In this document: positions 17,251 through 26,966 of the stretch, in pieces
Layout: each line of letters begins with the position of its first letter
Numbering within the stretch: the stretch's first letter is position 1
The notes under the pieces: model-generated
Seen by the model: only the letters and a program-made list of their open reading frames with translations
Databases searched by the model: none
What the model was told of the DNA's origin: nothing
Made by a program: the position numbers and the translations under genes
Assembly (NCBI RefSeq): GCF_030848565.1
Contig: NZ_JAVDDV010000009.1
Span: 62,001 to 126,000, forward strand
Origin: Natronolimnohabitans sp. A-GB9
GTDB taxonomy: Archaea; Halobacteriota; Halobacteria; Halobacteriales; Natrialbaceae
Direction: 5' to 3'
Length of the DNA: 64,000 nucleotides

Positions 17251-17434
17251 AATAGGGGGCCCGCTGGAAACGCGGTCGAGGTCCGGCGCTGTCGGAACCG
17301 CGACTCGAGGGTCGACGACCGACCACGTCGTGTCCGGACCGGACGACCGCACCGAGACGGGTCGTAGCCTATCTCTCGTCGAGAGCGGGCAAAACCCTTT
17401 GCACTGCAGTCGTCTGTGTGGTCTGCGTTCGATT

Positions 17435-17497
17435 CCGTATCTTGATACGGACTACTGTAGCGACTCTCGTCACACTACTGTAGCGACTCTCGTCACA
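17435..17497. repeat. Family A ends in head-to-head contact, with a 23-bp tandem duplication
   Basis: CCGTATCTTGATACGG (17435-17450) is a perfect palindrome made of two element ends. The right one continues GACTACTGTAGC. A unit CTACTGTAGCGACTCTCGTC plus ACA then occurs twice in direct tandem (17452-17474 and 17475-17497). It looks like a rearranged remnant of one or two copies. Confidence 0.7.
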
Positions 17498-17587
17498 CCC
17501 GTGATCCGTCTCCAGTTGCCCGATAAATCTTACAGCAGACTGTACGAGACAGCTATTCTTTTGTCGTCGCTCCCCAATTTCGAACCG

Positions 17588-18364
17588 ATGAACGAATCGA
17601 CGGCCGCGTCACGTGGGAGCGGCGCCGACGGCAGCGAAGGGCAACCGATCGACGACTCGTCGTCCGGCGTCGGTCTCGAGTGGCTCTCGCTGGCCGACGA
17701 CGAGTCGGTGTTGTGGGCCGGCGGCCCCGACCGTCGCACGGTTTTGCCGGCGGCGAGTTCACTCGTTCTCCCGGCACTCGCACTCGTCGCCGTTCCGTTC
17801 GAACCCGTAGCGGCGCTCGTCGCCGCCGTGCTCCTGGCGCTGGTGACGCTGCCGATCGTCGGCTGGGTCCTCCTGCAGGTTCGCAACACGGACTACGTCG
17901 TCACCACCAGCGGCCTCTACGAGAAACGCGGTGTCCTCTCGCGGGACGTCAAACGGATCGACTTCGAGAAGGTACAGAATACGGCATACAATCAGAGCGC
18001 ACTCGGGACGTGGCTGGGATACGGCGACGTCGAGGTGAGTTCGGCCGGCGGCGCCGGCGTCGAAATGCGGTTCCGATCGATCTCGAACCCACACGAGATT
18101 CAGCAACTGATCAGCAGCCGCGTCACGGCAGTTCGGGCCAGCGACCGCCGGAACGAAGGGGACACCGCTGGCTCCTCGGACGAAGTTCTCGAGGAAATCC
18201 TCGCGGAACTGCGAGCGATCCGGACGCACCTCGAGGACGACGCTACCGCGAGTACGACTCACGGGTCGTTGGCGAATCGACCACCGGACGCGGGGGAAGG
18301 TAAAGGAGATGAAGCGGGAATCACGTTCGAACGCGAGTCGGCGGACACTGATCTCACGGAGTAG
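17588..18364 (+). CDS. bPH2 (DUF304/YdbT-like) membrane protein
   Basis: 258 residues from the ATG at 17588. A disordered acidic N-terminus (1-35) is followed by two membrane helices (about 55-95), then the bacterial PH-like fold YVVTTSGLYEKRGVLSRDVKRI...VEVSSAGGAGVEMRFRSI (about 102-170), the hallmark of bPH2 proteins. The C-terminal 80 residues include a short amphipathic helix EVLEEILAELRAIRTHL, seen in oligomerising family members. The domain faces the cytoplasm. Its job is not known. There is no operon partner. Confidence 0.85.
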   Translation: MNESTAASRGSGADGSEGQPIDDSSSGVGLEWLSLADDESVLWAGGPDRRTVLPAASSLVLPALALVAVPFEPVAALVAAVLLALVTLPIVGWVLLQVRNTDYVVTTSGLYEKRGVLSRDVKRIDFEKVQNTAYNQSALGTWLGYGDVEVSSAGGAGVEMRFRSISNPHEIQQLISSRVTAVRASDRRNEGDTAGSSDEVLEEILAELRAIRTHLEDDATASTTHGSLANRPPDAGEGKGDEAGITFERESADTDLTE

Positions 18365-18496: not shown

Positions 18497-18577
18497 GACG
18501 GACTACTGTACGTCGGTACCGGCGCAACCGAAGCCCGGGTCGCGGTTGCGCCGGGAAATCGGTACAGCAATCCGTAT
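18497..18577. repeat. Family A element, variant inner stem, at a stop codon
   Basis: Ends GACGGACTACTGTAC and TACAGCAATCCGTAT. The inner stem is ACCGGCGCAACCG / CGGTTGCGCCGG instead of the usual GCCGATCGCC type, so the stem sequence is not conserved but the pairing is. The right end continues into the stop codon of the minus-strand gene at 18577. Confidence 0.85.
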
Positions 18578-18927
18578 CAGACCACCGTCGAGATCATATA
18601 GAGGTTGATGAGGACGGCGGCGGTCCAGGGAAGCGCCAGGCCGGCAGGGACGATCGGACGGTACGCTGCGGGGAGCAACGGCCGACAGAGCAGACCGACG
18701 CCGATCGCCAGCCCCTTCAGTACGAGCATCCCGGCCAGTCCGTAGCCGTCGATCGCGCTCCGAGCGACCGGGTTCGACTCGGCAAGCCCCAGGTGGAGTC
18801 CGACGAAGGTGGTTACGACGTCACCGACCAGGGAGAGCCCGACGAGAACCCACAGCGCTCGCTCGAGGGTGGCCGGGCTGAGATCGACCGGGAGTTCGTA
18901 CTGTCGGTACGCGGCGTCGGAACTCAT
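18577..18927 (-). CDS. Small membrane protein, DUF5658-like
   Basis: 116 residues with three to four membrane helices. LSLVGDVVTTFVGLHLGLAESNPVARSAID (about 31-60) has the GDxxTTxxGLxxGxxExNP pattern of a small haloarchaeal membrane family, tentatively DUF5658. The function is unknown. The gene ends GTG GTC TGA TAC GGA TTG, so its stop codon is the first codon of a family A element. Confidence 0.65.
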   Translation of the reverse strand: MSSDAAYRQYELPVDLSPATLERALWVLVGLSLVGDVVTTFVGLHLGLAESNPVARSAIDGYGLAGMLVLKGLAIGVGLLCRPLLPAAYRPIVPAGLALPWTAAVLINLYMISTVV

Positions 18928-19917: not shown

Positions 19918-21090
19918 ATGGCAGGTACACAAACAGAGCATCTCGTTCACCGGCTCGCGACGATTCGTGACCGGCTCGAGCAAGGCATGGACCGTCGTGA
20001 GTTCCTTCGGACCCTGGTTACCGGTGGCTACGCGCTGGGCGTCGCTAGCGTCCTCGGTGTCGACGACTTTCTCGCGGCCGACGACGGCGAGGTACCGATC
20101 GTCACTGCACTTGTCAGGTCCGATCCCGACGATCCGTGGTCGATCGAGGAACGGATCCGGTACGTCCCGGCCGAGTGGTACGCCGCCGTCGAGAAGGCCC
20201 TCGAGATAAACGAGTTGCTCGCCCGCCGGGCGTTTACCGGCTACCTCGGCAGTGCGGTCGTCCCTGGGTCGTACGACAACACTACTGCGTCTGTCTCCAT
20301 CGGCATCTCGACCAACGCCGACTCGATTCGCGAGACGATCGACGATGTCTTCGAGAACGTCTCGATCGACACCGAGACGATCATCGACGTCGAAGATATC
20401 GAAGACGGTCCAGACGATATCGAGCCGCGGTTCGTCGACTCGAGTGCGACCGACGACGTTCCAAGCGGCGTCGCCTGTGAGACGCCCGGCAGCATCGCGA
20501 CGCTCGGTCCTGCAATGTACGATCCCGAGAACGGACGTGAATACTTCGTGACGGCAGAGCACGCGTTCGAAGGGGGCGCCGAGCCGTCCGTCGATCGGCT
20601 CTCGCTTCCGGTCGAGGACGACGATACCATCGAACTGGGTGTCGTCGAACGTGCACATCCCGTCGAGGACGTCGTTGCTGTCGCACCGAACGGCACTATC
20701 GAGCCGTCGAACACTATCGATACGCCCACACCGACCCGCGTTCGCGGCCAGTACACGCGTCTCGGACTCGCCGACCTCGTCGCTCGTGACGAAGAACTCG
20801 AGAAAGTCGGTGCCGTGACCGGTCACACGACCGGACAGATCCAGGGGATCGACGCCGTCACCTGTTTTACCGACGAGTTCTGTCGCTACGGTCAGATCCG
20901 CTGGGGCGGCGAGATGGACCTGACCGATGGCGACAGCGGCTCGGTGAGTTTTCATCCCGATCCCGAGGGTGCCGACGGCGACGTCCTCGTCGCCGGGTTC
21001 AACAACGCCCGGACCTGGTGGCCCGGCCAGAGCTACGTCTGGGGCGTCGGCGCCTATCGAGTAACCGAAGAGTACGGCTATCACTTCTGA
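19918..21090 (+). CDS. Tat-exported trypsin-like serine protease
   Basis: 390 residues. MDRREFLRTLVTGGYALGVA (24-43) is a Tat signal with an Arg pair. The mature part has FVTAEHAF with His215, a hydrophobic VEDVVAVAP with candidate Asp251, and DGDSGSVSF with Ser340, the order and spacing of a chymotrypsin-fold triad. VGAVTGHTTGQIQG (297-310) matches the strand before the nucleophile in alpha-lytic protease and streptogrisin. C187, C316 and C322 could form one disulfide. Residues 60-180 are probably a pro-region. Assignment to an S1-type peptidase is by motif reading and is not tested. The next gene starts 13 bp later. Confidence 0.68.
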   Translation: MAGTQTEHLVHRLATIRDRLEQGMDRREFLRTLVTGGYALGVASVLGVDDFLAADDGEVPIVTALVRSDPDDPWSIEERIRYVPAEWYAAVEKALEINELLARRAFTGYLGSAVVPGSYDNTTASVSIGISTNADSIRETIDDVFENVSIDTETIIDVEDIEDGPDDIEPRFVDSSATDDVPSGVACETPGSIATLGPAMYDPENGREYFVTAEHAFEGGAEPSVDRLSLPVEDDDTIELGVVERAHPVEDVVAVAPNGTIEPSNTIDTPTPTRVRGQYTRLGLADLVARDEELEKVGAVTGHTTGQIQGIDAVTCFTDEFCRYGQIRWGGEMDLTDGDSGSVSFHPDPEGADGDVLVAGFNNARTWWPGQSYVWGVGAYRVTEEYGYHF

Positions 21091-21103
21091 ACGACTCAAA
21101 CTC

Positions 21104-21376
21104 ATGGCTACCGACACCGCCACCGACGAGACGACCGACGACGCTTCCGACGAGACGACCGATCCTGCTCGTGGCACCTGGAGCGTTCGCAACGCGATAC
21201 GCACCGGTTTCCGACTCGCTGCCGACCTGTTCGTCGTCACGTGCTGGGTCCTGTTTCTGACGCTGGTGTTCCTCGAGATCGCCTGGCCGCGGTGGGCGTT
21301 CTACGTCCTGCTGCTCGGGGGTGTCGGCGTCTACGTTGCCGTTACGGCGACGTGGGGTGGCGGTGACTCGACGTGA
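21104..21376 (+). CDS. Small membrane protein linked to the protease gene
   Basis: 90 residues. An acidic Thr/Asp N-terminus (1-25) is followed by two helices (about 43-60 and 65-82), LFVVTCWVLFLTLVFLEIAW and FYVLLLGGVGVYVAVTATW. It is 13 bp downstream of the protease and on the same strand, so co-transcription is likely. The function is unknown. It could be a haloarchaea-specific two-helix protein. Confidence 0.65.
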   Translation: MATDTATDETTDDASDETTDPARGTWSVRNAIRTGFRLAADLFVVTCWVLFLTLVFLEIAWPRWAFYVLLLGGVGVYVAVTATWGGGDST

Positions 21377-21399: not shown

Positions 21400-22788
21400 T
21401 CACGTCATCGGTTCGCCGCCATCGCCGGCGACGGCCAGTTCGAGGATGAAACTCGAGGACGAGACGATGTCGCCGATGCCGACCGTGCCCGCCGGTTCGT
21501 CGACGACCCGATTCGGACAGGCAACGACCGTCGGCGTAGCGAGGACGCCGTCGTCGGCCGTTTCGTCGAGGTGGTCAGCCAGCAGTTCGATCGCTTCGCG
21601 GCCCATCGCCGAGCGTTCGTATTTAAGGCCCGTCTCGAGGTCGTCGGGGGACGTAATCTCCCCACGGGCCGCCTTGGTCGCGGCGTTGACGGCTGCGAAC
21701 TCGAGTCCCCGTCGGACTGCCTCGGGCGGGAGATACGACTCCATCACCGCGAGGTGGTACTCCATCGCGTGCAACTGAATGCAGTCGACGCCGAGTTCCT
21801 CGCGTACCGCCTCGAGCATCCGGTAGTGATCGAGAATCTCGTCCGGTTCGAACGGCGTCGCCTCCGTCGGGGCCTCCGCGACGACCTCCATGCCCGCATC
21901 GTCGTGGAGCATCGTCAACTCGTGAGTGTCGGCACCTACGACGTTCGCTTCCGGCAGGATCCACTCGTACATACTCTCTCTGAGCTCGTCGTCGTGGGTG
22001 ACGGCGTACTCGATGTGGACGTCGAGATCGCCCCCCGATCTGAGTCGATTGATGACGTCGCGTGCGTGGCGGTGTGCTTCTTCGTACCCGTCCGCAACGT
22101 GGTCGGGCGTGAGATTGTGATACCCTGCGAGCAACGCGCCCTCGACTGTCTCGCCGACCTGATCGATCGACTCGTCGAGTTCGCCGGCGACGAGGTCGAA
22201 CTCCGGCGGTCTCGAGGCGGCGATGAACCGAGTGTCTTCCTTTGCGGTTGCGCCGAACAGTTCGTCGCCCTCCCTGAACTCGAACACCCAGTTGATCTTC
22301 GTCCGGTCCGTGTTGACGGCCTCGGTCAGGGGAACGTAGCTCACCTGTCCGTCCTCGACGGTCGGATACTGCACCTCGTCGGGATGTTCGAACATCGAGA
22401 GCTGTCGCTCGGAGACCATGTACGTGTACGTGATCGGCGACGTCCCCAGCGCGGTGAGCAGGTTCGTCATGATCCCCGCCTGGCCGCCCATCTGTTGGCT
22501 GTCGGGGGGTAGCTCCGACTCGAGCGTGCTCGCGAACGCGTCGGTCATCGCGATCTCGTCGCCCCGGCCGGCTGCCATCGTCTGTGTGATCGCTGCCGCG
22601 AGTTCCCGTTTCGAATCCAGCCGCCCTGTCGGTGTCTCTGCTCCGGGATCCGACGGCCGCTCGAGGAACGATTCGAGCTCCTCGTCGACTCGAACGATCG
22701 CGTCGACGTTTGCGTTGTAGGCGACGAACACCGGAAGGTCCTCGAGAGTGGCCAAATCAGCGTCCAGTTGGGCGTGGGCGTCGTTCAT
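21400..22788 (-). CDS. ADP-dependent phosphofructokinase/glucokinase family protein
   Basis: 462 residues, the normal length for the ADP-dependent sugar kinase family (PfkC-like). FVAYNANVDAIV (20-31) is the sugar-binding N-terminal segment. MGGQAGIMTNLL (99-110) and the C-terminal GIGDIVSSSSF (437-447, with Asp440 as catalytic base) are the family's key motifs. The enzyme phosphorylates fructose-6-phosphate or glucose with ADP. Which sugar it takes is unclear. The divergent neighbour is PEP synthase, followed by FBPase and aldolase, which supports a glycolysis/gluconeogenesis role. Confidence 0.8.
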   Translation of the reverse strand: MNDAHAQLDADLATLEDLPVFVAYNANVDAIVRVDEELESFLERPSDPGAETPTGRLDSKRELAAAITQTMAAGRGDEIAMTDAFASTLESELPPDSQQMGGQAGIMTNLLTALGTSPITYTYMVSERQLSMFEHPDEVQYPTVEDGQVSYVPLTEAVNTDRTKINWVFEFREGDELFGATAKEDTRFIAASRPPEFDLVAGELDESIDQVGETVEGALLAGYHNLTPDHVADGYEEAHRHARDVINRLRSGGDLDVHIEYAVTHDDELRESMYEWILPEANVVGADTHELTMLHDDAGMEVVAEAPTEATPFEPDEILDHYRMLEAVREELGVDCIQLHAMEYHLAVMESYLPPEAVRRGLEFAAVNAATKAARGEITSPDDLETGLKYERSAMGREAIELLADHLDETADDGVLATPTVVACPNRVVDEPAGTVGIGDIVSSSSFILELAVAGDGGEPMT

Positions 22789-22898
22789 GACACAGCATCC
22801 TCCCAGACCGAGTGTGTTAATGTTGTGCGTGCTCGATCATCCGCGATCCCTGCCCCCTCCGAACTTATGGCCGTGGGCGTGGTCCGAGTGACGGAGCG

Positions 22899-25172
22899 AT
22901 GTCACGAGATACGTTCGTCCGATGGTTGGAGGATCTCAGCGGCGACGACACGGACGCCGTCGGCGGAAAGAGCGCAAACCTCGGCGAACTCGCCGACCTC
23001 GACGTGCCCGTCCTGCCCGGCTTTACGACGACGGCGTCGGCGTACGACTACTACGTCGAGGCGACCGGCATACACTCGGAGATCAAGTCACAACTCGACG
23101 GCCTCGACGTCGACGACGTCAGCGACCTCCAGCGTCGCGGGGAACGGATCAGACGAACGATCTCCGAGGCGTCGATGCCGCCCGAGTTGGAATCGGCGAT
23201 TCTCGAGCGGTACGCCGAACTGGGCGACGAGATCGACATCGAGGACCCGGAGGTCGCGGTCAGAAGTTCCGCGACTGCAGAGGACCTCCCCGAAGCTTCC
23301 TTTGCCGGCCAACAGGAGACGTTCCTGAACGTCGCCGGCGAGACGGAGCTGATCGAATCGATCAAACACTGCTTTGCCTCGCTGTTTACCGACCGCGCGA
23401 TCGTCTACCGCGAGAACAACGATTTCGATCACTTCGACGTCAAACTCGCCTGTACCGTCCAGAAGATGGGACGGGCCGATCTGGCGTCCTCGGGTGTCCT
23501 CTTTACGCTCGATCCGGACACTGGCTTCGAGGACGTCGTCGTCATCGAGGCGGCCTACGGGTTTGGCGAACCGATCGTCCAGGGGGTGGTCGATCCCGAC
23601 AGGTACGTCGTCTTCAAACCGACAAACGGGATCGTCGAGAAACAACTCGGCGGCAAAACCCAGCGTATGGTCCGCCGGAACGGCGGCACCAAACTCGAGT
23701 CGGTCCCCGAAGCGGCTCGCGAGGAGTTTGCACTTTCAGACGAGCGGATCCGGGAGCTGGCGACGTACGCGACCCGAATCGAGGAGCACTTCGAGACGCC
23801 ACAGGACATCGAGTGGCTCGTCGACGGCGACCTCGAGGAGCTGTTCGTCGTCCAGGCCAGACCGGAGACGGTCCACGGAGCGGCTACGGAAAACGTCCTC
23901 CGGACGTACAGCCTCACGGAAACGGCCGAGGAACTCCTCGACGGCGTCGCGATCGGAAGCGCCATCGCGACCGGCCCCGTTCGGATCCTCGAGGACCACC
24001 GGCAGATGGATCTGGTCGAGGAGGGCGACGTTCTCGTCACCGAGATGACCGACCCCGATTGGGTCCCGGTGATGAAGAAAGCGAGCGCCATCGTCACCGA
24101 CAGGGGCGGCAAAACCTCACACGCTGCGATCGTCTCCCGTGAGCTGGGTATCCCCGCGATCGTTCGTGCCGGTGACGCGACCGACGTGTTGTCGGATGGG
24201 ACCACCGTGACCGTCGACTGCTCGACGGACACCGGACGGGTGTACGAGGGCGCCCTCGAGTACGAGGTCACCGAAGAGGAGATCGACGACCTGCCCGAGA
24301 CCGAGACCGAGGTCAAGTTAGTCCTCGGCGACCCAGACCGTGCGTTTGCCCTCGCGAACCTGCCGGTCGACGGCGTCGGCCTGGCACGCGAGGAGTTTAT
24401 CGTCACCAGTCACGTCGGCCATCACCCGTTGGCGTTGCTCTCCCGCGGCGAGGAGTCACAGTTCGTCGACGCCCTCCGGACCGGCATCGCGAAGATCGGC
24501 GCCGCGTTCTACCCCGACGAAGTCATCTTCCGGCTCAGCGATTTCAAGACCGACGAGTACCGGAACCTCACGGGTGGCCCGCCGTACGAACCCGAAGAGG
24601 ACAATCCGATGCTCGGCTGGCGCGGGGCCTCCCGGTACTACGACGAGACGTTCCGGGAGGCGTTTCGCCTCGAGTGTGAGGCGCTCCGACAGGTCCGTGA
24701 GGACGTCGGGTTAGACAACGTGATCGTGATGGTCCCGTTCTGTCGGACGCCCGAGGAAGGCCAACGCGTGCTGGACCTGCTCGCGGAGTTTGGCCTCTCA
24801 CAGGAGGAAATGGATATCTACGTGATGGCAGAACTACCCTCGAACATCGTCCTCGCGGATCGGTTCGCGGAGCTGTTCGACGGGTTCTCGATCGGCTCGA
24901 ACGATCTCACACAGCTGACACTCGGCGTCGATCGCAACTCCGAGCAACTCGCACCGCTTTTCGACGAGACCAACGATGCGGTGAAACGGTCGATCACCTC
25001 GTTGATCGAGGATGCCCATCGGCACGATCGACCGGTCGGTATCTGTGGCGACGCCCCCTCGACGATCCCGGAGTACACCGAGTTCTTGCTCGAGGCCGGT
25101 ATCGATTCGATCTCCGTGTCGCCGGACGTCGCGATCGAGACGCTCCTGACGGTGGCGGAGTTCGAATCGTAG
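22899..25172 (+). CDS. ppsA: Phosphoenolpyruvate synthase
   Basis: 757 residues, near the usual length. The N-terminal ATP-grasp domain begins VGGKSANLGEL. The swivelling phosphohistidine domain has GGKTSHAAIVSRE with His408. The C-terminal TIM barrel ends with SNDLTQLTLGVDR and GICGDAPS with the catalytic Cys716. It makes PEP from pyruvate and ATP, the entry to gluconeogenesis. AACTTATGG about 32 nt upstream can serve as TATA box. It diverges from the ADP-dependent kinase gene (110-bp gap) and converges with fbp across a family B element. Confidence 0.95.
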   Translation: MSRDTFVRWLEDLSGDDTDAVGGKSANLGELADLDVPVLPGFTTTASAYDYYVEATGIHSEIKSQLDGLDVDDVSDLQRRGERIRRTISEASMPPELESAILERYAELGDEIDIEDPEVAVRSSATAEDLPEASFAGQQETFLNVAGETELIESIKHCFASLFTDRAIVYRENNDFDHFDVKLACTVQKMGRADLASSGVLFTLDPDTGFEDVVVIEAAYGFGEPIVQGVVDPDRYVVFKPTNGIVEKQLGGKTQRMVRRNGGTKLESVPEAAREEFALSDERIRELATYATRIEEHFETPQDIEWLVDGDLEELFVVQARPETVHGAATENVLRTYSLTETAEELLDGVAIGSAIATGPVRILEDHRQMDLVEEGDVLVTEMTDPDWVPVMKKASAIVTDRGGKTSHAAIVSRELGIPAIVRAGDATDVLSDGTTVTVDCSTDTGRVYEGALEYEVTEEEIDDLPETETEVKLVLGDPDRAFALANLPVDGVGLAREEFIVTSHVGHHPLALLSRGEESQFVDALRTGIAKIGAAFYPDEVIFRLSDFKTDEYRNLTGGPPYEPEEDNPMLGWRGASRYYDETFREAFRLECEALRQVREDVGLDNVIVMVPFCRTPEEGQRVLDLLAEFGLSQEEMDIYVMAELPSNIVLADRFAELFDGFSIGSNDLTQLTLGVDRNSEQLAPLFDETNDAVKRSITSLIEDAHRHDRPVGICGDAPSTIPEYTEFLLEAGIDSISVSPDVAIETLLTVAEFES

Positions 25173-25220
25173 CGCGTCCTGTGGCGGTCGAATCGAGGGG
25201 ACCGACGGCGGCGGTCGCCT

Positions 25221-25301
25221 TATACTGGCGGACAGAAGTCAACGAACAGTATTCGCCGGACGGAAGCGGCGAATACTCACAATAGTTCCGTCCGGCAGTA
25301 T
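25221..25301. repeat. Family B element, short form, at the fbp stop codon
   Basis: Begins TATACTGGCGGACAGAAGTC and ends GTTCCGTCCGGCAGTAT. The interior is replaced by a hairpin GTATTCGCC / GGCGAATAC. On the minus strand the fbp stop TAA runs directly into TACTGCCGGACGG. It separates the convergent ppsA and fbp genes. Confidence 0.85.
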
Positions 25302-26170
25302 TACTCGAGCGTGGACTCGAGGCGATCGATCAACTCGGCGTTGCCGACGTGAAGTGGGACCCTGTCGTGGAGGTCGGTCGGTTCCACTTCGAGGATCGAC
25401 TGGCTCCCGTCAGAGGAGCGGCCGCCGGCCGATTCGACGAGGTACGCGATCGGGTTCCCCTCGAACTGCAGGCGGAGTTTCCCGCGTGGACTGTCCTCGA
25501 GGGCGGGGTAGGCGAAGATGCCGCCGTAGGTCAGCACCTGGTTGACGTCGCCGATCATCGCGCCGCCGTAGCGGAGTTTGTGATCCGGATTCGACTCGAT
25601 CTCGCGGACGAACTCGCGGAAGTCGTCGTGCCAGTGGGGGACGCGGCCGCCGAAGCCATAGACGAGCGGGTCGTCTGGCAGGGTAACGTCTTCCTCGACG
25701 ACGGTCCGTTCGCCGCCGGTGAGTTCGTACTTCGTGACCGATCCGTCGCGGGCGTATGCCATCGTCGTGATCGGTCCGTACAGGATCCAGCCGGAGGCGA
25801 CAAGCGCGGTCCCCGGTGCGGGGAGCGGCTCCTCGTAGATGCCGAACACCGTCCCCATCGTGTTGTTCGACTTCAGGTTCGACGACCCGTCGAGGGGGTC
25901 GACGGCGACGTAGACCTTTTCGTCCCCGCCGTCGATGATTTCCGAGCGCTCCTCGCTTGCGTACTGGCCGACGCCGTCGATCGACGACAGCCGGTCGGCG
26001 AGCAGTTCGTCGGCCCACACGTCCGCCTCGGCCTGGACTTCGCCGCTGGGGTTTTCCTCGTCGGCTTTCCCCCTGCGACCGACCAGTCCCTGGCGGATCT
26101 CGGCCGCCGAGCGAGCGATCGTGGCGACGACGTTCTCGACGGGATCGAGATCGGGATCGGTGGCGGACAT
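25301..26170 (-). CDS. fbp: Fructose-1,6-bisphosphatase
   Basis: 289 residues from the ATG at 26170. It has the class I FBPase metal site VAVDPLDGSSNLKSNN. It also has FGIYEE, GFGGRVPHWHDDF and the C-terminal GRSSDGSQSILEVEP block that binds the sugar phosphate. It removes the 1-phosphate from fructose-1,6-bisphosphate. The ATG is 1 bp after the aldolase stop (TAG G ATG), so fba-fbp is a tight operon that makes fructose-6-phosphate from triose phosphates. The open frame continues further upstream, but that extension overlaps fba and is not used. Stop TAA belongs to a family B element. Confidence 0.93.
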   Translation of the reverse strand: MSATDPDLDPVENVVATIARSAAEIRQGLVGRRGKADEENPSGEVQAEADVWADELLADRLSSIDGVGQYASEERSEIIDGGDEKVYVAVDPLDGSSNLKSNNTMGTVFGIYEEPLPAPGTALVASGWILYGPITTMAYARDGSVTKYELTGGERTVVEEDVTLPDDPLVYGFGGRVPHWHDDFREFVREIESNPDHKLRYGGAMIGDVNQVLTYGGIFAYPALEDSPRGKLRLQFEGNPIAYLVESAGGRSSDGSQSILEVEPTDLHDRVPLHVGNAELIDRLESTLE

Positions 26171-26171
26171 C

Positions 26172-26966
26172 CTACTCAGTGGCCTCGAGTGCGGCGTCAG
26201 CCGTCTCTTCCTCGTAGATGACTTTCTCGAGGGCGTCGAGGATTCGGGTTGGGTCCTCACGCTGCCAGACGTTGCGGCCGACGGCGAGTCCCTGTGCGCC
26301 GGCGCTGACCGCGGCTTCGACCGTCGAGAGGAACTCGTAGTCGGAGGTCTTCGAACCGCCGCTCATGACGACTTTCATGTCGCCGGCACACTTGCAGGCG
26401 TGTTCCATCGCTTCGGGGCTGCCGGGATACTTGATCTTCGCGATGTCGGCGCCCAGCTCGAGACCGAGACGGCTCGCATACGAGATGACGTCCGGCTTGG
26501 TGTCGTTTTTGAGGCCCTGGCCGCGCGGATACGACCACATGACGACCGGCAGGTCGTGTTCGCGGGCGTCTTCCTGGACGTCGCGGAACTCCTCTGCCAT
26601 TTCGACCTCGTGGTTCGAGCCTCCGTAGAGGGTAAATCCGATGGCGTCAGCGCCGATTTCGGCGGCGTAGTCGACCGAACAGTTGACCGCCGAGTCGTAC
26701 TCGCCCATCCAGAGGTTCGAGGTCCCGTTTACCTTCAACAGGAGGTTGACGTCGTCCTCGTAGCTTGGGTAGTATCCCTCCGCGATGCCTTTCTGGACGG
26801 CCATCGCGGTGACGGCGTCGTGGGTCGCCGTCTCGAAAACCGTCGAGGGATCGAGTTTCTCCGGTACCTCTTCGAAGTCGACTGGGCCGTGTTCCAGGCC
26901 GTGGTCCATCGCCAGGATCAGTGACTTTCCGTCGCGAACGATCGGGGAATCGTCGATCGGAATCAT
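26172..26966 (-). CDS. fba: Class I fructose-bisphosphate aldolase, DhnA/archaeal type
   Basis: 264 residues. LAMDHGLEHGP (18-28) and the Schiff-base region ADIAKIKYPG (173-182; Lys177 by analogy with archaeal class I aldolases) are clear, as are SGGSKTSDYEFL (202-213) and GLAVGRNVWQ (about 232-241) for phosphate binding. It condenses dihydroxyacetone phosphate and glyceraldehyde-3-phosphate, or cleaves the product. It is the first gene of the fba-fbp operon. A TATATAT box centred 28 nt upstream gives a leaderless start. Confidence 0.93.
   Translation of the reverse strand: MIPIDDSPIVRDGKSLILAMDHGLEHGPVDFEEVPEKLDPSTVFETATHDAVTAMAVQKGIAEGYYPSYEDDVNLLLKVNGTSNLWMGEYDSAVNCSVDYAAEIGADAIGFTLYGGSNHEVEMAEEFRDVQEDAREHDLPVVMWSYPRGQGLKNDTKPDVISYASRLGLELGADIAKIKYPGSPEAMEHACKCAGDMKVVMSGGSKTSDYEFLSTVEAAVSAGAQGLAVGRNVWQREDPTRILDALEKVIYEEETADAALEATE

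Follow-up and report, generated by a model that had tools for sequence, protein, structure and literature searches.

A Natrialbaceae gene pair encoding a predicted NAL1-like, Tat-exported serine protease and a small hairpin membrane protein

INTRODUCTION

NARROW LEAF 1 (NAL1) is a rice protease that controls leaf shape, yield, and growth. In chymotrypsins, the wall of the substrate pocket comes after the GDSGS strand. The streptogrisins and alpha-lytic protease, which we take to form subfamily S1E, have a Cys pair flanking the catalytic His and a folding propeptide. In haloarchaea, Stan-Lotter et al. reportedly described in 1999, going by the title as cited in PMC6172850, a chymotrypsinogen B-like enzyme of Natronomonas pharaonis.

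A regulatory role is possible for NAL1-type enzymes, given that ZmNAL1a, the maize relative, degrades a corepressor of the TOPLESS-like kind (PMC12915138, excerpt). Halolysins, the subject of an excerpt of PMC6085418, are haloarchaeal serine proteases exported by the Tat route, as is predicted for the protein reported here, but they are of the subtilisin type and have a different fold. Trypsin-like domains have been placed in Crenarchaeota (PMC5617955, excerpt), the words "trypsin" and "chymotrypsin" do not occur in two reviews on membrane proteases of haloarchaea (PMC4343526 and PMC9263693), and the protease coverage in an excerpt of PMC12893001 consists of halolysins. Among the literature matches listed, as titles and the starts of abstracts, none reports a haloarchaeal protease that is NAL1-like or that combines Tat export with a chymotrypsin fold, and none is a NAL1 structure paper.

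Here, we analyzed a gene pair in a 64,000-nt stretch of DNA from Natronolimnohabitans sp. A-GB9 (the whole stretch is hereafter called the window). Our overall reading, to which we assign a probability of roughly 55%, is that the pair encodes a surface serine protease, tethered to the membrane and probably specific, that forms a complex with a hairpin partner.

RESULTS

The gene pair and its distribution

A first-pass annotation had described a protease gene followed 13 bp downstream by a gene for a two-helix small protein. We found both ORFs on the same strand, with the spacing confirmed at 13 nt:

19918-21090, (+) strand: protease gene, an ORF of 390 aa, by prediction a Tat-exported chymotrypsin-fold serine protease
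21104-21376, (+) strand: partner gene, an ORF of 90 aa, a two-helix membrane protein

The coding sequence of both ORFs is conserved among relatives. A gene for a DUF5658 protein lies upstream (18577-18927) and one for an ADP-dependent kinase downstream (21400-22788), both on the (−) strand, so the pair appears to stand alone as a two-gene unit. A bPH_2 (bacterial PH domain) protein is encoded two genes further upstream (17330-18364) when counted from the pair, and a bPH_2 gene was also near the protease locus in 28 of 63 named loci. The genes for an ADP-dependent phosphofructokinase/glucokinase, phosphoenolpyruvate synthase, and class 1 fructose-bisphosphatase (FBPase) stand together directly downstream (21400-26260).

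The source genome (4.3 Mb in 72 contigs) contains a single protease match. Judged by named relatives, it belongs to the Natrialbaceae and adjoins Natronolimnohabitans innermongolicus (82% identity). Protease matches (E ≤ 0.001) were found in 118 of the 125 genomes of this family, the window's own included, and in 135 of 391 genomes sampled across the class. The seven family genomes without a match comprised five of one genus (g2; G001-G004 and G006), G013, and G121, the last of which is only 67% complete. The enzyme had initially been considered unusual among haloarchaeal proteases; since it is nearly universal in its own family, it is unrecognized rather than rare. Specifically, neither the protease nor the partner of the window matched any Pfam or NCBIfam family at its cut-off, and all 14 plasmid records covering ≥80% of the protease carry the label "hypothetical protein" (two are also labeled "TIGR00341 family protein").

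Active site and conserved residues

Conservation was assessed in a wide set of 84 loci, which includes the window's own and 20 loci added to represent remote or outlying relatives, and in 52 aligned protease sequences from near relatives. The three putative catalytic residues map as follows (counts are for the wide set):

20560-20562, (+) strand: codon of catalytic His215 (context FVTAEHAF), H in 83/83 loci with a residue there
20668-20670, (+) strand: codon of catalytic Asp251 (context HPVEDVVAV), D in 83/83 loci with a residue there
20935-20937, (+) strand: codon of catalytic Ser340 (context DGDSGS), S in 84/84 loci

The totals for His215 and Asp251 are 83 rather than 84 because one locus is a fragment without the region. 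The proposed triad His215/Asp251/Ser340 was thus borne out by its conservation, as all three residues were also invariant across the 52 near relatives. G338, D339, S340, and G341 were each present in 84/84 loci of the wide set, and an alignment of the catalytic domain from 55 sequences, reaching down to 26–32% identity, retained 10 invariant columns, among them the triad and GDSG. This is the pattern that a working serine protease would be expected to leave, and the intact triad suggests proteolysis. A scaffold protein that has lost proteolysis through decay of its active site would be compatible with public copies that are unannotated and with an activity deduced here from residues; with H, D, S, and GDSG in every locus that has residues there, at identities as low as 26–32%, we regard it as highly improbable and rejected a pseudo-enzyme on the same grounds.

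Two further features stood out in the catalytic domain:

20863-20883, (+) strand: Cys316-Cys322, a candidate disulfide in a hairpin, both Cys in 52/52 near relatives
20998-21027, (+) strand: FNNARTWWPG (residues 361–370), invariant in 52/52 near relatives, a putative pocket lining

In the wide set, C322 was found in 83/84 loci and C316 in 74/84, and a disulfide between them within the hairpin is possible. The "TTG strand" noted earlier corresponds to GHTTG (residues 302–306), with G306 in 82/84 loci and G302 in 73/84. The positions of FNNARTWWPG were each kept in 64 to 78 of the 84 loci, and the motif is not retained in a distant group of proteases. Its order after the GDSGS strand points to a lining of the substrate pocket, and its strict conservation in near relatives suggests one or a few specific substrates, not general digestion.

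Predicted fold and nearest structures

The AlphaFold2 model (built with 52 sequences) had a pTM of 0.78 and a mean pLDDT of 77.4, with values below 50 for nearly all of residues 1–52, for the linker 152–166, and for the loop 366–372 inside the FNNARTWWPG region; residues 331–340, Ser340 included, averaged 62. The predicted catalytic domain is supported by Foldseek, VIA-align, and the profile against the PDB:

20452-21087, (+) strand: catalytic domain of the chymotrypsin type, residues 179–390

As in chymotrypsins, His215 lies in a short helix (214–217) after a strand (207–212), Asp251 just precedes a strand (252–257), and Ser340 just precedes another (342–347). The best 50 rows of Foldseek and of VIA-align were all chymotrypsin-fold proteases, so the prediction and the structural matches agree with the trypsin-like fold assigned from the sequence. 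A subtilisin or halolysin was rejected, as no such family was among the matches and the predicted fold is that of chymotrypsin.

By both sequence profile and fold, the top match was NAL1 (PDB 8pmg, 7y77, 8hau, and others). In Foldseek, rice NAL1 ranked first (E = 2.3e-10), followed by Streptomyces and Lysobacter proteases (from E = 1.0e-8). In VIA-align, ranks 1–9 were NAL1 entries (Z 18.6–19.2), of which the top three (Z 19.2) aligned over 276–285 residues at 4.0–4.4 Å; two further NAL1 entries ranked lower (Z 17.5 and 15.1), and chains of the streptogrisin/alpha-lytic type scored Z 16.5–18.1 over 174–184 residues at 2.6–3.4 Å. The best rows of the two groups are therefore about 1 Z unit apart, with the NAL1 alignments being longer. 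As the catalytic domain spans 212 residues, an alignment of 276 places at least 64 aligned NAL1 positions before residue 179.

The narrower profile (52 sequences) against the PDB also placed NAL1 first, at a non-significant E of 0.11. The diversified catalytic-domain profile matched all nine distinct NAL1 chain sequences (E = 2.7e-5 to 9.9e-5), which, being forms of one protein, count as one match, one whose two stretches are weak when taken separately (E = 0.18 and 3). The next matches were an unrelated binding protein (E = 0.038) and Achromobacter protease I (E = 0.059), and no streptogrisin or alpha-lytic chain was among the profile matches at E ≤ 10. In Pfam, the window protease had no match to Trypsin (PF00089) or Trypsin_2 (PF13365) at E ≤ 1; Trypsin_2 matched 1 of 52 and 4 of 55 members and Trypsin 1 of 55 (best E = 0.0064). 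Nal1_C was absent at E ≤ 1 among the 52 and the 55 members, and a Nal1_C search of the window's genome gave no match, with the controls silent too. A significant NAL1 profile match without a Pfam trypsin or Nal1_C match indicates that the protease is, by profile and predicted fold, a remote NAL1 homologue in a family of its own, outside the Pfam Nal1 family.

The likeness to NAL1 comprises collinear blocks around the His, G-H-T-T-G, and G-D-S-G-S, and the structural alignment enters the N-terminal domain. However, the archaeal protease is only 13–17% identical to NAL1, and a Tat signal and a partner in the membrane set it apart from NAL1, a plant regulator. With the streptogrisins and alpha-lytic protease it shares the chymotrypsin fold, the His-Asp-Ser order, and GDSG; unlike S1E members, it has no Cys beside the catalytic His, its only Cys residues being at 187, 316, and 322. 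The first-pass annotation had called the TTG strand streptogrisin-like; among solved structures, the nearest relative is NAL1 and not streptogrisin, by profile (E = 2.7e-5) and by Foldseek rank.

The N-terminal region and a possible anchor

Two features precede the catalytic domain, the first defined by conservation and the second by the AlphaFold2 models:

19918-20076, (+) strand: N-terminal stretch, residues 1–53, with the Tat signal MDRREFLRT and a hydrophobic segment
20089-20352, (+) strand: small alpha/beta N-terminal domain, residues 58–145

R26/R27 (codons 19993-19998) were kept in 81/81 loci with residues there, and D-R-R-E-F-L-R-T was strongly conserved (F29 in 49/51, T32 in 51/51). 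The twin-arginine motif precedes the hydrophobic segment, as Tat substrates require, which upholds the reported Tat signal and points to export by this route. The generic Tat models matched few members, i.e., TIGR01409 8 of 52 (best E = 0.015) and PF10518 2 of 52 (best E = 0.14), and the window protein had no match to either. In our judgment, the larger protein is very probably an exported serine protease.

We found that the residue at position 51, which would occupy position −3 in a cleavage after residue 53, differs between groups: an F or Y stands there in 55 of the 60 partner-bearing sequences that cover the site versus 3 of 23 partner-less sequences, 14 of which have V. The usual signal-peptidase site is V-x-A, and an aromatic residue at −3 is unfavorable. 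The Tat signal of the partner-bearing group is therefore probably uncut or poorly cut and may tether the protein to the membrane by its N-terminus. On the tree, the pattern falls into clusters, and three partner-less sequences of family f9 also have F; the change may be a single event at the base of the group formed by f9 and the partner-bearing sequences, which makes this clue to anchoring suggestive only.

Both AlphaFold2 models give residues 58–145 as beta-beta-alpha-beta-beta-alpha. Searched alone, this domain had no clear relative (best Foldseek E = 0.58, best VIA-align Z = 6.0). It is here that a rather unlikely alternative enters, namely, a released digestive exoprotease whose Tat signal is cleaved and whose N-terminal domain acts as a folding propeptide that is cut off at the flexible linker around residues 150–178, with the hairpin protein incidental. 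The catalytic domain aligns with alpha-lytic and streptogrisin chains at the scores given above, another domain precedes it with the low-confidence linker 152–166, and at position 51 most of the relatives without a partner carry V or a different aliphatic residue, like the usual cleavage site. Halolysins, moreover, are Tat-exported precursors with propeptides (PMC6085418, excerpt). Against an exoprotease of this kind are the top three NAL1 alignments, which extend at least 64 residues before residue 179, and the retention of the partner throughout one protease group (see below); the searches with the N-terminal domain returned neither NAL1 nor a propeptide chain in the best 50 rows, which is compatible with either reading.

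Linkage of the partner to the protease

Partner-like matches occurred in 124 of 125 family genomes and 198 of 391 class genomes, counts that overstate the true partner because many matches are paralogues located elsewhere. We therefore considered position. In a linkage set of 93 loci (30 family genomes, the window's included, plus 63 named loci, with some genomes entering twice), the partner follows the protease on the same strand in 83, with the match starting −17 to 232 nt from the stop codon. The ten loci without it (L081-L090) belong to Halorussus, Haladaptatus, Halomicrococcus, and one MAG, and nine of them have no other small ORF with two hydrophobic stretches within 900 nt. In the wide set, a partner was detected by profile within 900 nt of the protease in 60 of 84 loci; for L128-L140, which lack a partner, the profile was the sole check.

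On a maximum-likelihood tree (71 rows, midpoint root), the partner label required two changes versus a shuffled mean of 19.6, and 0 of 500 shuffles were as low. The partner-bearing rows form one 49-row group (support 100/98), which includes other families and separate loci. Its sole member without an adjacent partner (L147) has one ~0.9 kb downstream (G084 C1 209532-209705, E = 1.7e-10), so the partner is present in all 49 rows, a distribution that fits one gain and no loss. More distant protease groups lack it, and a warning of long branches meeting applies to the distant partner-less group. The co-occurrence of the two genes that was to be checked is thus seen both as adjacency (83/93 loci) and as presence throughout the 49-row group.

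How much of this reflects function depends on the surrounding gene order. Among the 63 named loci, the DUF5658 gene is kept in 48 and the FBPase gene in 40; the neighborhood is hence old within the Natrialbaceae, and adjacency of the pair there is partly inherited gene order. Because of this synteny, the case for a functional link rests on three other observations. First, in L080 the pair is present with none of the usual neighbors within its flanks. Second, outside the family, five loci (L141-L145, of families f4, f7, and f9) have a divergent partner downstream (E = 1.6e-8 to 4e-11). Third, L147 keeps its partner despite two intervening opposite-strand genes. These observations count against the idea that the pair is inherited gene order without any functional link, for which the likewise retained DUF5658 and FBPase genes would speak; we consider that idea quite improbable and a functional link between protease and partner probable. 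Both triad conservation and gene linkage are direct observations on the sequences.

Several local features were also recorded. The two opposite-strand genes in L147 (2678-3326) encode a protein that by eye is helix-turn-helix-like and a membrane protein. Downstream of the partner, L063 (7560-7712) and G092 (C57 112497-112613) each contain a second, short protease-like fragment, perhaps left over from a tandem copy. In Natronorubrum bangense, chromosome and plasmid share a segment of 13,170 identical bases (L032/L033), and the chromosome of Haladaptatus pallidirubidus contains two identical copies of a 13,050-base segment (L086/L087); each case is either a real duplication or an assembly artifact.

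The partner protein

The conserved part of the partner is a hydrophobic hairpin:

21227-21349, (+) strand: hydrophobic hairpin, residues 42–82, with R37 and D41 before it, a WPRW joint, and W84 after it

The two hydrophobic stretches (~42–57 and 65–82) are separated by the short W-P-R-W turn. Among 44 members, D41 and T81 were invariant (44/44), and R37, W48, W61-P62, F66-Y67, Y77, and W84 were kept in 40 to 43 (W61 in 40; P62, Y67, and Y77 in 43 each). Basic residues before the first helix weakly suggest that both ends are cytoplasmic, with the orientation made uncertain by an Arg in the turn in 33/44. Scanning the 44 members against Pfam gave scattered weak matches to 31 families; among the best 25 of these 31, the lowest E-value was 4.7e-5 (DUF4386, 4/44). 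Phage_holin_3_6 appeared in 15/44 (best E = 0.0099), and the window partner's own two Pfam matches were far below the cut-offs. The partner profile had no clear match in the PDB (best E = 0.13).

Of the roles initially offered for the small protein (anchor, inhibitor, or immunity factor), the latter two fit poorly, given a hairpin turn of a few residues and related proteases that lack a partner, and a docking or assembly role would fit better. An inhibitor or immunity factor that shields the cell from its own protease would suit the tight same-strand adjacency, which many enzyme-immunity pairs display. However, the conserved part is almost entirely hydrophobic hairpin with a short turn, which offers little that could shield an external active site, 23 of the 84 loci have an intact triad with no partner found, and PADLOC returned no defense-family match at E ≤ 1; we therefore judge this role improbable. 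A defense system was likewise rejected (no PADLOC match at E ≤ 1), as was a phage or virus origin (no match to phage records at E ≤ 1); viral contigs gave 10 pattern matches, none of which is a relative.

At 16 chosen loci with partner paralogues, none held a protease of this family, and no functional clue emerged. Twelve of them (L150-L156 and L159-L163) have another conserved unannotated protein nearby, encoded by ORFs of ~370–490 aa, several with a hydrophobic N-terminus; three copies of this protein matched no Pfam family at E ≤ 0.1.

DISCUSSION

We propose that Tat export, which the invariant motif suggests, carries the larger protein across the membrane, and that this protein contains a small alpha/beta domain and, after it, a serine endopeptidase domain of the chymotrypsin fold with His215/Asp251/Ser340 as its triad. 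An uncleaved or poorly cleaved Tat signal would stay as the N-terminal membrane anchor, and the hairpin protein would sit in the membrane beside it, where it may hold, assemble, or position the enzyme. The protease would act on one or a few specific substrates. While the chymotrypsin-type fold is given directly by the prediction, the anchoring, the physical complex, and the narrow specificity are proposals; in particular, we regard it as an evenly balanced question whether the partner docks an N-terminally anchored enzyme.

A broader scenario, which we offer tentatively as a possibility, is that haloarchaea have an exported prokaryotic branch of the NAL1 lineage and that one group of it became a two-component membrane machine for surface signaling or envelope processing, with a permanent Tat anchor and a hairpin recruited once to seat the protease. 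If true, a two-component membrane protease of this kind would be undescribed in Archaea among the literature matches listed. A protease conserved across the family and probably located at the surface of haloarchaeal cells appears unlabeled in the annotations covered here. NAL1 gains prokaryotic relatives in which the core mechanism could be studied, and by comparing the partner-bearing and partner-less groups one could cleanly test how an enzyme exported by Tat acquires a dedicated membrane partner.
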